Positions 12,077 through 56,041 of a DNA stretch of 64,000 bases are shown in pieces; within the stretch, counting starts at the first letter, position 1; each line of letters opens with the position of its first letter. A program made the position numbers and the translations under genes. Origin of the DNA: Bacteroidia bacterium (GTDB taxonomy: Bacteria > Bacteroidota > Bacteroidia > J057). The notes beneath the pieces are model-generated. The model worked only from the letters and a program-made list of their open reading frames with translations. It searched no databases and was not told where the DNA came from. The DNA lies in contig JAUIGE010000022.1 of NCBI GenBank assembly GCA_030430205.1, positions 1 through 64,000 of the forward strand, written 5' to 3'.

Positions 12077-12111
12077 CTCTCTACTCTCTACTCTCTACTC
12101 TCGCCCCTCCT
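12077..12111. repeat. Short GAGAnnn heptamer array after phoH
   Basis: Five 7-base units, CTCTCTA three times then two variants, follow the phoH stop by 18 bases. Read on the minus strand the unit is TAGAGAG, the same purine-rich GAGA class and the same 7-base period as the arrays at 35041 and 55958. Confidence 0.65.
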
Positions 12112-33238: not shown

Positions 33239-35041
33239 ATGAAGGCACTTTTCGCCCTTAATCCTTACATCTGGCGTTATAAGAAATTGTTGATTCTGGG
33301 CACCCTCTTTATCATCCTTTCCAATATCTTCAGTGTTTACCCCGCCCAAATCGTACGGATGTCTATTGACATGGTGGCGGAATTGATCCGTACCTATCGG
33401 TTGATCAGTGATTTTGATGCCATCAGTGGCCTGGATTCCCTGTTGTTACCTGCGCTCCTGCTATTTGGAGGACTGGTAATTCTGATGGCTGTCATCAGAG
33501 GGGTATTTCTCTTTTTGACCCGGCAAACCCTCATCATCATGTCCCGCAAGGTCGAGTACGACCTCCACCGCGACCTCTACGATCATTTTCAGTCACTTAC
33601 CCTTTCCTTCTACCGCAAAAGCCGCACGGGCGACCTCATGGCCCGCATCACAGAAGACGTCGGGCGCGTCCGCATGTACCTCGGTCCCGGCATCATGTAC
33701 ACCCTCAATGCGATTTCCACGGCCATCGTGGTCATCATTACCATGATTGCCGTCAATCCCGAGTTGACGCTCTATGTGCTGCTTCCTTTGCCGATCCTGA
33801 GTTTTGTGATCTATTATGTGGAATCCCTTATTCAGCGAAAAAGTGACTTGATCCAGCGCCAATTATCCAAATTGACCACTTTTACTCAGGAGATATTTTC
33901 AGGAATCAGGGTAATAAAAGCCTATGTAAAAGAAGAAGAATCCAGCAAAGTCTTTGCCCACGAGGCTGATATCTACAAGAATCGCTCGGTGAATCTGGCC
34001 AAACTGGAAGCGCTCTTTATCCCGGCGGTGATATTTCTTGCGGGGCTGAGCACCCTGCTTGTGGTGTGGATTGGAGGGGAAAAAATAATTGCCGGCTCCC
34101 TGACCATCGGCAATATCGCCGAGTTTATCATTTACATCGGCCTGTTGACCTGGCCGATCATCGCTGTGGGTTGGGTCACCACCCTGATCCAGCGCGCCGC
34201 CGCCTCTCAGGTTCGGCTGAATGAGCTGCTCGCAGAGCGCCCTGAAATCCGCTTTCCGGAAAGCGGCCCGGTTCTGGAACAAGCCAGCCTGAGCTTTCAG
34301 GATGTTTCCTTCACCTATGCCGATACCGGCATAAACGCCATCAAAGATATCAGCTTCCGCCTCGAAGCGGGACAAAAACTGGGCATCTTAGGCCCGACGG
34401 GCTCCGGAAAATCAACGCTTTGCGCGCTGATACCCAGGCTTTTTGACACGGATTTTGGAAAAATTCACATCAGCGGAAACGAGCTCAGGCAATACAGCAT
34501 CCACGGCCTACGTGATGAGATAGGCTATGCGCCCCAGGATGTTTTCCTTTTTTCGGATAATGTCGCCAACAATATCGCATTTGGTAAACCTGACGCCAGT
34601 CAGGAAGAAATAGAAGCCGCCGCAAAAAATGCGGATATCTACAACAACATCCAGGACTTCAAAGAGAAGTTTAAGACGGTAGTAGGTGAAAGAGGGGTAA
34701 CCCTCTCCGGCGGTCAAAAACAACGAATTTCCGTTGCGCGGGCGTGGATTCGCAAACCCAAATTACTGATACTCGATGATGTCTTATCTGCGGTAGACAC
34801 CCGCACAGAAGAGACCATCCTCAACAATCTGCGCACTTACCGACAGAAAAATCCCCAATCTTCCGTTATCATGGTGGCACATCGCATCTCTTGTTTACAA
34901 GATGCTGACCATATTATCGTTTTGGAAGAGGGACGTCTGACTCAGCAAGGAACTCATGAGGAGTTGGTAAATCGTGAAGGATATTATCAGCGGATTTATC
35001 AGAAGCAGTTGCTGGAAGCGGGGGCAGAGAACCGGGACTAG
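33239..35041 (+). CDS. ABC exporter, fused membrane and ATPase domains (MsbA/BmrA-like)
   Basis: 600 residues from the ATG at 33239 (MKALFALNPYIWRYKK); upstream in-frame starts lie before the promoter motif. Six membrane helices in residues about 15-310, including the coupling segment MSRKVEYDLHRDLYDHFQSL typical of type I exporters. ATPase: Walker A GPTGSGKST near 384, signature LSGGQKQR, Walker B LLILDDVLSAVD, H-loop AHRIS. At the catalytic glutamate position there is Asp (LDDVLSAVD), as in the degenerate site of heterodimeric exporters. Substrate unknown; lipid or drug export is possible. Confidence 0.92.
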   Translation: MKALFALNPYIWRYKKLLILGTLFIILSNIFSVYPAQIVRMSIDMVAELIRTYRLISDFDAISGLDSLLLPALLLFGGLVILMAVIRGVFLFLTRQTLIIMSRKVEYDLHRDLYDHFQSLTLSFYRKSRTGDLMARITEDVGRVRMYLGPGIMYTLNAISTAIVVIITMIAVNPELTLYVLLPLPILSFVIYYVESLIQRKSDLIQRQLSKLTTFTQEIFSGIRVIKAYVKEEESSKVFAHEADIYKNRSVNLAKLEALFIPAVIFLAGLSTLLVVWIGGEKIIAGSLTIGNIAEFIIYIGLLTWPIIAVGWVTTLIQRAAASQVRLNELLAERPEIRFPESGPVLEQASLSFQDVSFTYADTGINAIKDISFRLEAGQKLGILGPTGSGKSTLCALIPRLFDTDFGKIHISGNELRQYSIHGLRDEIGYAPQDVFLFSDNVANNIAFGKPDASQEEIEAAAKNADIYNNIQDFKEKFKTVVGERGVTLSGGQKQRISVARAWIRKPKLLILDDVLSAVDTRTEETILNNLRTYRQKNPQSSVIMVAHRISCLQDADHIIVLEEGRLTQQGTHEELVNREGYYQRIYQKQLLEAGAENRD

Positions 35042-35131
35042 AGAGGAGAGAGGAGAGAGGAGAGAGGAGAGAGGAGAGATCAGAGATGAGAGATGAGAGA
35101 CGAAACCCGAAACTCAAAACCCGAAACTCAC
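35041..35131 (+). repeat. GAGAnnn heptamer array, 13 units
   Basis: Thirteen 7-base units run from the stop codon of the ABC exporter to 9 bases before the next ATG: GAGAGGA five times, then GAGATCA, GAGATGA twice, GAGACGA, and four A-rich variants such as AACCCGA and AACTCAA. The 7-base phase is kept throughout. Same class as the array at 55958. Confidence 0.88.
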
Positions 35132-51110: not shown

Positions 51111-52667
51111 TTACTCTTTTACAATTTTTTGATTGAAAACATGGTCTTTTGCATCCCTGGCAGATAGGTAATAAAAGCCTGACGGCAGATCTTTTAGGCT
51201 CACCCCTTGCCCTTCAGCCAATAGGTCTGTCAAAACCGCCTGTCCCAATTGATTACTCATACTCAGCCGAATTGGAAAACGAACGTTTTCATCAAAATGG
51301 AAATAAATCCAGTCTTTCGTTGGATTGGGGAACGCCCCCATCCTTGCCGGAAATTTGTTTATCTCTATTAATGAGTTTGTCAAGACATTTCCATCTCCAT
51401 CCACTTTGATGACGATGATATCCCTTTCCTCTTTTTCCTTTTCCCGATAATCATACCTGCTACCAATCATGACAGCGCCCCCATCCCGGGTAGCAAGAAC
51501 CTTTACCATGAAATAAAAAGCATCCCCTCCATATTTTTTTTGCCAAAGTGTTACCCCCGCTCTCGCACGTAAACTATCCAATTTTGCTAAGACAAAATAA
51601 TTTTGATAGTGGCCATAATATAAATTAGATAATCCTCCTCTTGCAGTACTCCCTAAATAAATTGCATTTTTATGGACGAAGTCCAGCGGTTGATATGCTA
51701 TCCGATCAAATGTATCTTCAATTCCAATATATTGTCTTTGTACCTCATATCCGAGATTGCTACCTGTGTTAATCCATGCCAAAACCAGGTCTTCATCATC
51801 CCAGGGATTTTGGGCCAAAGGAGGACTAAAATTAGGATAAGAGGAACAGACCAACAAAGAAGTGTCATTAATAAAACGCCCAGTTCCACCAAACAACCCT
51901 CCAAAGGTAAGATATTGTATGGCTTTCCAATTAAGGTTACTATCTATATGTAATACTTCATTATGGGAAATAGCAGAAGGAGAAGAATCCGGCAAGCCAG
52001 CGCCAACAATAAAATAACCATTGCCTAAAGGGTCTGCGTCTATTGAATTACCATAGCCTCCTGTATGATATGTGACCCCTGTCGAATCCAGGACAGTGTG
52101 GTAGGCTTGATTCAATATGTTCCCCTCTAAATCTAACTCATACACAAATAACTCATCAAAGAATAAAGGTGGAGATAAAGAATAATGTGCAGCTCCAAAC
52201 ACGACAATTTTTTCCTCAAATACTTGTACATCTGTCACATTCTCTCTTAAGCCAGACCTTCCTATTCTCCTTGTCCAATTTACATTTTGAAGATCCGAAG
52301 TATAGTTTATCAAATAAAAATCTAGCTCCCCAATATAATCCTTACAGAATATGATAAGGACAGAAGAATCTTTTAAAATCAAAACTTTGGAAATACTTGC
52401 CAATACTTCATGCTTAGCAAAAAAGGTTTCTGATATTTTGTTTCCCAGAGAATCTAGTCTGATAATAAAGCCATCATAATATAATTGGCTTGGATCGTCA
52501 TCCAAAACTACATAAGCCGACAGATATAAGTCATTCAATGGGCCTTCTACCACATCATTTACAAGATCGTTTTGGGAATCACCATCTTCATAAATAAATG
52601 ATTGCGAAAAGGTGCTTGTTGAAAAAGAGATTGCAAGAAACAGCAGAAAAAAAATTCTATTGGGCAT
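51111..52667 (-). CDS. AT-rich secreted protein with T9SS sorting domain
   Basis: 518 residues from the ATG at 52667 (MPNRIFFLLFLAISF, signal peptide, cut near TFSQ); a start at 52688 would precede it. The body has beta-propeller-like repeats (DGFIIRLDSLGNKISETFF, ELFVYELDLEGNILNQAYH, IIVIKVDGDGNVLTNSLIE). The end FPNPTKDW to NQKIVKE is a T9SS sorting domain. The gene sits between sufD and sufS and is more AT-rich than either, suggesting insertion. Function unknown. Confidence 0.82.
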   Translation of the reverse strand: MPNRIFFLLFLAISFSTSTFSQSFIYEDGDSQNDLVNDVVEGPLNDLYLSAYVVLDDDPSQLYYDGFIIRLDSLGNKISETFFAKHEVLASISKVLILKDSSVLIIFCKDYIGELDFYLINYTSDLQNVNWTRRIGRSGLRENVTDVQVFEEKIVVFGAAHYSLSPPLFFDELFVYELDLEGNILNQAYHTVLDSTGVTYHTGGYGNSIDADPLGNGYFIVGAGLPDSSPSAISHNEVLHIDSNLNWKAIQYLTFGGLFGGTGRFINDTSLLVCSSYPNFSPPLAQNPWDDEDLVLAWINTGSNLGYEVQRQYIGIEDTFDRIAYQPLDFVHKNAIYLGSTARGGLSNLYYGHYQNYFVLAKLDSLRARAGVTLWQKKYGGDAFYFMVKVLATRDGGAVMIGSRYDYREKEKEERDIIVIKVDGDGNVLTNSLIEINKFPARMGAFPNPTKDWIYFHFDENVRFPIRLSMSNQLGQAVLTDLLAEGQGVSLKDLPSGFYYLSARDAKDHVFNQKIVKE

Positions 52668-52795
52668 GATTTCTTCTTTTGGATACATTTCAGAAACTAT
52701 GTTGAAAGAAATAAAACCTCCAAACTCATTTACATTTTTATATAAATGAAGTTTGGATGTTCAAAATTGCATATACTCGAAAATCTTAGTTGAGG

Positions 52796-53824
52796 CTAAA
52801 GACTTGGTGAGTTATATTCACAAACGCCCCAATAAACCTTCCCTACATGGAAGTATTTTATAGGAGAAAATGATTCCACTGGAGTAATGACTGCAGGCCC
52901 TCTACTATTGTTTTGGGGGATTCCTCCTGATGCAGTAATGGCATCTTGCATTACTATGGGAGATCCAACTACTGCAAGGTCAAGTTCCTCAGGAGTCATA
53001 CAGGAATTGGTTGAAAAAAACATCATATAATCACGATCCCAATCACTGTCGTTTCCAGATGGGTCTCCTAGCTGATGATTTGACCATTTATGAGTTGGAG
53101 TATTTACAACAACATTAAATGGGGTATAACCAACTTTCGAAAAATAAGGACTAGTTGATTGAGTGGGATTATTTGGATCTACAGCTCCACAATTAAGGTA
53201 TGATCTGTAGCCATAACAATTTTCATCATTTAATCTCTTAGCAACTTCCCAGGCACCTTCTGAATTGGTGTTAGTATTTCCATTACAACCCCCAGCTGGA
53301 GCGTTAAAAATATCTCCAAAGTGCCAATAATCATCTGTCTCATCAGCCAAACAGCTACTATCCAAATAAAAGTAGCCTAAAAACAGGGTGATTGAAAAGG
53401 AAGCAAACGAACCTTCAGGTGCTGAGGGATTAATATCAATTAATACCACATGATGATCATCCGTTGAAATCCCTACACGGTCCGGATAACCAGAAATAAA
53501 TGCTTGAAGAGAATCAAACATTTCTTCTAAATCATCTTTATCTACAAAATAACCTTCTTCGGTCTGATTCCATTCTATAGGAATTGTAAAGTTTGTTTCA
53601 TCCAAAATAGGATAAGAAAAATCCGACCCTACATCTCCATGGTAATAATTGACCAAATGCTCTAAATAGTCAATTGCATGATCATAGGTGACATCATCAA
53701 ATTCTGGGACATAGCCATTGCTCTGGCTTGCTCTGGCTGAAAACATAGGAGTTTCAACTTGGTCTGGCTCAGGCACAACATCCTGCTTATTGACACAAGC
53801 AGTTATGCACAAACAAACAAACAA
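52796..53824 (-). CDS. Lipoprotein with tetranucleotide repeat in its signal peptide (possibly switched off)
   Basis: 342 residues if read from the TTG at 53824; no in-frame ATG exists upstream. The only nearby ATG (53859) opens a frame that crosses the (TTTG)6 repeat and stops at TAA 53803. With one more repeat unit (or two fewer) that ATG would join this frame and give MSPIKTNHPLFVCLFVC followed by a lipobox ITAC. So the gene appears out of phase. The mature part is acidic, with eight or more cysteines, NSEGAWEVAKRL and a Met-rich DRDYMMFFSTNSC; no family was recognised. AT-rich like its downstream neighbour. Confidence 0.65.
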   Translation of the reverse strand: MFVCLCITACVNKQDVVPEPDQVETPMFSARASQSNGYVPEFDDVTYDHAIDYLEHLVNYYHGDVGSDFSYPILDETNFTIPIEWNQTEEGYFVDKDDLEEMFDSLQAFISGYPDRVGISTDDHHVVLIDINPSAPEGSFASFSITLFLGYFYLDSSCLADETDDYWHFGDIFNAPAGGCNGNTNTNSEGAWEVAKRLNDENCYGYRSYLNCGAVDPNNPTQSTSPYFSKVGYTPFNVVVNTPTHKWSNHQLGDPSGNDSDWDRDYMMFFSTNSCMTPEELDLAVVGSPIVMQDAITASGGIPQNNSRGPAVITPVESFSPIKYFHVGKVYWGVCEYNSPSL

Positions 53825-53833
53825 ACAAACAAA
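53810..53833. repeat. (TTTG)6 tetranucleotide repeat
   Basis: Six perfect units (CAAA on the plus strand) lie in the signal-peptide part of the lipoprotein gene. Unit changes shift the reading frame, the usual basis of slipped-strand phase variation. Confidence 0.9.
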
Positions 53834-53931
53834 GGGTGGTTGGTTTTGATAGGACTCATAATAAAATAGATTAGAGGTTGAATAATTAATAAAAATTACC
53901 TATTCTTCCTCTAACTTCCAAGACTTATTTA

Positions 53932-55200
53932 TCAAAACCGATTTTCAATCAGCCTTTCAATATATTCTGCTACAGGCTCCATGCCCATTTTTTCAATTGT
54001 CTCTCCTGCAAAAGCAAAAACCATCAGTTGCTGTGCCTGCTTTAGCGGAATGCCTCTTGCCTGAAGGTAAAAAAGGGCATCTTCGTCCATTTGACCCGTG
54101 GTAGCGCCGTGGCTGCATTTCACATCATCGGCGTAGATTTCGAGCTGCGGTTTGGTATTGATGCTGGCGGTATTGGAAAGCAATACGTTGCGGTTGGATT
54201 GGTAGGCATTCGTTTTTTGTGCGGGTTGATGCACATGGATCTTTCCACGGAATGCAGCACTGGATTCATCATCCAGAATGCCTTTATACAATTCGTTGCT
54301 ATAACAATTGGGCGCAAAATGATCCACCAGGGTATGGTTGTCTACATGTTGCTTGTTATCAAGCATATAGAGGCCATTGAGCACGGAGGAGGTGTTTTCG
54401 CCTTTTAGGTGAAAGTGCAGGTTGTTGCGGACCCAGGCACCGCCCAGGGTGATGGTAAATAGCTGAACCTGGCTGTCTTTTGCCTGGTGGACTTCCGTCC
54501 TGTCAACTCCCATAGCCTCCTGGCTCTCCAATTGCAATTTTACATATTCGCAGCGCGCATTTTCACCTACAACCCATTCTGTGACTGCATTGCGGAAGGT
54601 GGCTTGCCCTGAAAGGCTGTGGAAAGATTCCACGACTTTCACCTCAGCAAATGCTTCCAGCACAAAAAGATTGCGGCTCTGTACCGCCGAAGCTTCATTT
54701 ACATCTGTCAAATGAAGGATATGCAGCGGCTTTTCAATTGCCTTATTTTTCTTTACAGATACCCAGACCCCTTCTTCCGCATAGGCGGCATTGATGGCTG
54801 CAAAAATATCTTCATCCAGGCTGGCAAGCTGTCCGAAATCTTTTTCAAAAGCTGAAAGCTGATCCGAAGTGATGGAGCTCAAACTATTGATAGTCAGCTT
54901 GCTATCCTTGTCGACATGAGATAGTTTTTCGCTGTATTTCCCATTGACAAATACCATCACATTAGCCTCCAGGCCCGGGATCAGAAATGGGGTAATATCT
55001 GTTACATTACCCCCTTTTGCCAGTTGGAAACTATGCTCAAGAAGCGGTTTAACGCTTGTATATTTCCAGGCTTCCCAACGAGTCGTAGGCAGGCTCATTT
55101 CCTTTAGCTGGGTTGCAGCAGCCTGCCTGAGGGCAGGAGCAGTCTTTGGCAAAGGCTGAGCAGAAAATTGTGAAACAAAAGAGTTTGTTTTGCTATCCAT
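53932..55200 (-). CDS. sufD: Fe-S cluster assembly protein SufD
   Basis: 422 residues from the ATG at 55200 (MDSKTNSFVSQF), 2 bases after the sufC stop; a start at 55230 would overlap sufC. Diagnostic features: TTRWEAWKYTSVKPLL near the N-terminus, a central beta-helix, and KCSHGATTGQMDEDALFYLQARGIP near residue 365-390. It pairs with SufB and SufC in the scaffold complex that builds Fe-S clusters. Confidence 0.94.
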   Translation of the reverse strand: MDSKTNSFVSQFSAQPLPKTAPALRQAAATQLKEMSLPTTRWEAWKYTSVKPLLEHSFQLAKGGNVTDITPFLIPGLEANVMVFVNGKYSEKLSHVDKDSKLTINSLSSITSDQLSAFEKDFGQLASLDEDIFAAINAAYAEEGVWVSVKKNKAIEKPLHILHLTDVNEASAVQSRNLFVLEAFAEVKVVESFHSLSGQATFRNAVTEWVVGENARCEYVKLQLESQEAMGVDRTEVHQAKDSQVQLFTITLGGAWVRNNLHFHLKGENTSSVLNGLYMLDNKQHVDNHTLVDHFAPNCYSNELYKGILDDESSAAFRGKIHVHQPAQKTNAYQSNRNVLLSNTASINTKPQLEIYADDVKCSHGATTGQMDEDALFYLQARGIPLKQAQQLMVFAFAGETIEKMGMEPVAEYIERLIENRF

Positions 55201-55957: not shown

Positions 55958-56041
55958 TTCTTCGTTTTTCGTTCTTAGTTTTCTCTTGTCTCGGTTCTCG
56001 GTTCTCGGTTCTCGCCTCTCGCCTCTCGGTTCTCGCCTCTC
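55958..56041 (-). repeat. GAGAnnn heptamer array, 12 units, between sufB and sufC
   Basis: Twelve consecutive 7-base units on the minus strand begin directly after the sufB stop codon and end 2 bases before the sufC ATG. Units are GAGAGGC (3), GAGAACC (4), GAGACAA, GAGAAAA, then three drifting A-rich units (CTAAGAA, CGAAAAA, CGAAGAA). The phase never breaks. It lies inside a co-transcribed operon, so it is present in the mRNA. Confidence 0.9.

Follow-up and report, generated by a model that had tools for sequence, protein, structure and literature searches.

In the 64,000-nucleotide stretch of a Bacteroidota draft genome analyzed here (the window), we identified a lipoprotein gene interrupted by a tetranucleotide array lying between its start codon and its lipobox. 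We consider the chance somewhat better than even that this TTTG locus is phase-variable, i.e., a slipped-strand contingency locus comparable to the opa genes of Neisseria that was sequenced in its OFF state. All features of the locus lie on the minus strand. A single ATG is present in the gap following sufD (53857–53859) and starts the interrupted frame with the codons for MSPIKTNHP (53859–53833), and after 23 further bases comes an array of six perfect TTTG units (53810–53833; called by Tandem Repeats Finder as ACAA x6.2 at 53809–53833), which is followed by TGCATAACTGCTTGTGTCAATAAG. In the observed copy, translation from this ATG would give the OFF-phase product MSPIKTNHPLFVCLFVCA, consisting of 18 codons with a stop ending at 53803 (53803–53859). 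The long lipoprotein frame, including the lipobox ITA-C, spans 52796–53824 and has 342 codons when counted from the TTG of the array. It stays open upstream to 53899, but ATG and GTG codons are absent from that upstream part and TTG codons occur there only within the TTTG array, the first ATG of the long frame being found at 53746. An earlier note on this DNA had described the lipoprotein frame as lacking an ATG, which holds for everything between 53899 and 53746, and its positions for the ATG (53859) and the stop (53803), as well as the 35-base offset between the ATG and the TTG, proved correct.

Unit arithmetic shows that the ATG at 53859 is in frame with the long frame when the array has 4, 7, or 10 units; one additional unit, or two fewer, would cure the frame as previously proposed, and ten units would do the same. 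As expected for a slipped-strand (SSR) locus, the number of units sets the frame of an otherwise intact gene. In the proposed mechanism, replication slippage would add or remove some of the TTTG units that separate the start codon from the lipobox. Translation from the ATG would continue into the long frame at 4, 7, or 10 units, yielding a lipoprotein whose signal peptide has 18, 22, or 26 residues. Any other length, six included, would terminate translation early, either at 53803 (18 codons) or in the third frame. The array, the frames, the unit arithmetic, the intact body, the lipobox, the uniqueness of the array, and the insertion described below are read directly from the DNA; from this anatomy we infer switching, in which unit numbers would differ among cells of a living population, translation would begin at the ATG, and the product would be a lipidated protein.

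The in-frame leader is composed of MSPIKTNHP, a core of Leu, Phe, Val, and Cys residues contributed by the array, and ITA-C, which makes the cysteine of the lipobox residue 19, 23, or 27 with 4, 7, or 10 units, respectively. (TTTG)n spells Leu, Phe, Val, and Cys in all three frames, and the array itself is therefore the signal-peptide core. A lysine at position 5, the L/F/V/C core, and ITA-C with the cysteine at position 19 or 23, as expected of a bacterial lipoprotein (cysteine at about 15–35), were found together only in the in-frame phases, which agrees with the earlier claim that a change in unit number would complete a signal peptide with a lipobox. For comparison, 99 crude lipoproteins were collected from the same genome by a pattern requiring a charged n-region and a hydrophobic core. 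Their cysteine is located at positions 15–28 (one at 36) with a peak at 17–20; since the set was drawn by pattern, this shows that the leader has an ordinary length, not that it works. LTAC, VTAC, and FTAC lipoboxes are found among the 99, and a cysteine at lipobox position −4, as in the present leader, is shared by only two of them. The in-frame leader would make a plausible lipoprotein signal.

Surface lipoproteins of Bacteroidetes carry an acidic lipoprotein export signal (LES) at positions +2 to +6, e.g., QKDDE or SDDDD, with K-(D/E)2 as the minimal form (PMC5080379). The corresponding residues following the lipid cysteine here are VNKQD and do not resemble this LES, which is that of known Bacteroidetes and may not be the signal used by this family. 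Because VNKQD is unlike the acidic export signal and the protein contains no known domain, the label of surface antigen given to the product in the earlier note is unsupported. The slipped-strand OFF reading proposed in the same note is retained, based on the ATG, the non-triplet array, and the intact frame with its lipobox.

The array scans covered 2.53 Mb, corresponding to 35% of the 7.24 Mb draft genome in 80 contigs. According to an order-3 Markov model trained on these 2.53 Mb, the expected number of (TTTG)6 in 7.24 Mb is 5e-7, and that of any tetranucleotide array of the same length 7e-5; the locus thus has a non-triplet tandem array beyond chance length, which is a further property of slipped-strand loci. 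No second array of (TTTG)4 or longer was found anywhere else in the 7.24 Mb genome. Tetranucleotide arrays of at least 16 nt were represented in the 2.53 Mb by the TTTG array and just one other. (TTTG)5 was absent from the genomes of 12 relatives within the family, and in a set of 100 relatives it was present in six genomes, including the source genome. Other TTTG arrays in related genomes are mostly located outside genes or before a start, or are not comparably placed. A tract this far beyond chance must be the outcome of slippage, and we take it as direct evidence that slippage has acted at the site; it says neither how often nor how recently.

The 342-codon frame has no stops before its own, while its two sister frames contain 20 and 39 and the three antisense frames between 18 and 27. 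Such an intact frame means that the OFF state arose recently or can be reversed. The codon-usage fit of the gene is weak (0.05 bits per codon vs. 0.25–0.34 for the suf genes), in agreement with its low GC content (0.386; GC3 0.27). The mature part comprises 333 residues and contains six cysteines in addition to the lipid cysteine, which suits an exported protein. Searches with the product gave no Pfam match above the cut-off and no match in NCBIfam or PDB, and no relatives were detected in the 100 related genomes, genome_contigs, or viral_contigs. A class sample of 395 genomes gave one marginal match (genome G126; 35% over residues 79–199, E 2.7e-5, in an open frame of 353 aa). A single-sequence AlphaFold model had a pLDDT of 32.6 and is too poor for fold use. 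As judged from these comparisons, the product is an orphan protein.

Upstream of the lipoprotein gene the order is sufB, sufC, and sufD, the sufD frame ending at 53932 on the minus strand, and the gap between the sufD stop and the ATG at 53859 is 72 bases with 22% GC. Within this gap (53860–53931, minus strand), a long hairpin with bulges, GUUAGAGG...CCUCUAAU, precedes a weakly U-rich stretch; the gap is possibly a 5′ leader or else the place where the sufD transcript has its 3′ end. A fold z-score of −2.6 was obtained for 192 nt around the hairpin. A promoter scan at the lipoprotein locus performed no better than shuffles. Downstream, and before sufS, is a gene on the minus strand for a 525-codon T9SS-type protein with a C-terminal sorting domain (TIGR04183; 51111–52664). 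In a congeneric genome the lipoprotein gene and its T9SS-type neighbor are both absent and sufD and sufS are only 15 bases apart, the next gene downstream, in both genomes, encoding a T9SS protein of ~1290 aa. The GC content of the lipoprotein gene and of the neighbor is 0.38 each, compared with 0.47 in the suf genes. Based on the absence of the pair from the congener and the close spacing of sufD and sufS there, the genes at 51111–53859 appear to have been inserted together in the source lineage, a loss in the congener being less likely. No convincing target-site repeats were found at the ends of the sufD–sufS insertion. The nearest named records of SufS are from Bacteroidota, several of them Saprospiraceae, with at most 64% identity.

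The main rivals to a phase-variable locus are a one-way slip in a dispensable cargo gene and an error in the counted tract length. In the first case the array slipped once and the gene is a young pseudogene without selection to revert, which we regard as unlikely, if far from negligible. Such a history would fit an orphan, low-GC, inserted pair that is absent from the congener and in that sense dispensable, as well as the weak codon-usage fit of the gene and the finding that the array is the only locus of its class in 2.53 Mb. However, the 342 codons contain no other lesion, and the array is far longer than one slip would leave. Moreover, slippage is inherently reversible, so that a recent one-way frameshift differs from a switch mainly in the selection acting on the gene. 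The second explanation, an assembly or sequencing artefact with a true tract of seven (or four) units and an ordinarily expressed gene, appears improbable. The genome is a draft of 80 contigs, but a 24-base array fits well inside one short read, and common sequencing errors change homopolymers and not exact 4-base units. On the other hand, the sequencing process can itself create length variation in tetranucleotide arrays (PMC6889271). Most doubtful is that the six-unit copy yields the protein, whether by initiation at one of the array's TTG codons (53824, 53812), by reinitiation further on (ATG 53746, GTG 53776), or by a ribosomal frameshift within the array. Initiation at TTG is permitted, and 53824 is the start that ORF callers would choose, but the product from this TTG has a leader of only nine residues without Lys or Arg and hence without positive charge, the downstream starts would yield an unexported protein with six cysteines, and the array contains no X XXY YYZ slippery heptamer.

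The reading of the TTTG locus as phase-variable also has to be weighed against observations made elsewhere in the genome and in its relatives. In its favor we counted C11 and G10 tracts in the same genome and (CAAA)8 and (CAAA)9 arrays in G051, another Bacteroidia genome. Against it we counted the single observed tract length from one assembly, the absence of a clear excess of G/C homopolymers of at least nine, the uncommon cysteine at −4, and the different placement of TTTG arrays elsewhere. Six units are also short, and the slippage rate at such a length may be low.

A scan of 2.53 Mb (35%) of the source genome for an ATG followed by an array and an open frame revealed, besides heptanucleotide arrays, two tracts near starts that stand out. 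The C11 tract (L013 5702–5712; C1:25702–25712) is located directly after ATGAAAATTTTA and has the appearance of an OFF copy, the ATG frame ending after 12 codons and another frame being open for 287 codons with a signal-peptide-like start, INFKLIIFCIITLLATNYLNAQQ, and lacking an ATG over 249 bases. Here, a miscalled homopolymer has to be considered seriously as an alternative. The G10 tract (L141 2785–2794; C61:2785–2794) is located inside a signal peptide, MILLLGGGLFSQ, and leaves the gene in frame (ON); the encoded protein has 933 codons and contains bacterial Ig, cadherin-like, and SdrD_B domains. Poly-G/C tracts as a class are not enriched, as 12 tracts of at least nine were found vs. roughly 10 expected, estimated from the decay of shorter tracts. 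In G051, both (CAAA)8 (L215 1501–1532) and (CAAA)9 (L219 533–568) sit between the end of one open frame and the start of the next, an arrangement that resembles phase-variable genes caught out of frame; one pair consists of a TPR-like N-terminal half continued by 439 codons, and the other of a 115-codon half continued by 127 codons. Together with the TTTG arrays found outside genes or before starts, these junctions suggest that the CAAA/TTTG unit can act as a frame switch in the Bacteroidia, and that it often does not. It is conceivable, although we hold this only tentatively, that the Bacteroidota lineage studied here uses simple-sequence slippage in or just before signal peptides (TTTG6 in a lipoprotein, C11 in a secreted protein, and G10 in an adhesin-like protein) to turn exported proteins on and off at random, either in addition to the DNA inversions of Bacteroides or in their place, and that other Bacteroidia such as G051 do likewise with the CAAA/TTTG unit.

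Perfect heptanucleotide arrays of at least 21 nt numbered 135 in the 2.53 Mb vs. none in Markov simulation. They are mostly located between genes and belong to few unit families (AAACCCG/AAAACCC, ACTCTCT, AATGGAT, and AACTGCC); those in the window are found at 12077–12102, 35040–35130, and 55961–56041. None were detected in ~110 kb of sequence from other members of the family, covering suf and related loci. These arrays recall the TAACTGA heptamers described from Beggiatoaceae, cyanobacteria, and five Bacteroidetes (PMC4679880), but consist of other units. A role of the heptamers as 5′ coding switches was rejected, as most are intergenic and, among the inspected cases that seem to fall within frames, the majority reflect frames extended too far upstream of what is likely the true ATG.

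In the literature searched, slipped-strand switches are described mainly from host-adapted bacteria (Neisseria, Haemophilus, Helicobacter, and Campylobacter), and phase variation in Bacteroidota is described via DNA inversion. If true, a switch at the lipoprotein array, together with the two signal-peptide tracts, would extend repeat-based bet-hedging to large-genome Bacteroidota, and the TTTG locus is testable by sequencing one amplicon. Surface proteins and capsules of Bacteroides undergo phase variation by DNA inversion (PMC11868660). These systems share with the TTTG locus the phylum and the on/off control of exported products, but their mechanism is site-specific inversion and does not involve repeat slippage. 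In Haemophilus influenzae (licA, hgp), each genome contains 12–14 or more tetranucleotide loci with repeat numbers that vary between strains, and such switches as a rule lie immediately behind the start codon (PMC2651432). The TTTG array is likewise a tetranucleotide array at or just downstream of a start codon, but it is known as one locus from one assembly. With a single 5′ locus and one other array of at least 16 nt in 2.53 Mb, a genome-wide family of such loci as in Haemophilus is not found here. In Neisseria opa, (CTCTT)n repeats are located within the leader-peptide codons of a multigene family of outer-membrane proteins, which switch at about 1e-3 per cell per generation (PMC3960869). 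The present locus differs from opa in being one orphan lipoprotein gene with a tetranucleotide unit in a different phylum and with putative switching, whereas the switching of opa has been measured. As in opa, a non-triplet coding array lies in the signal peptide of a putative exported protein after a fixed ATG, and the number of units sets the frame.
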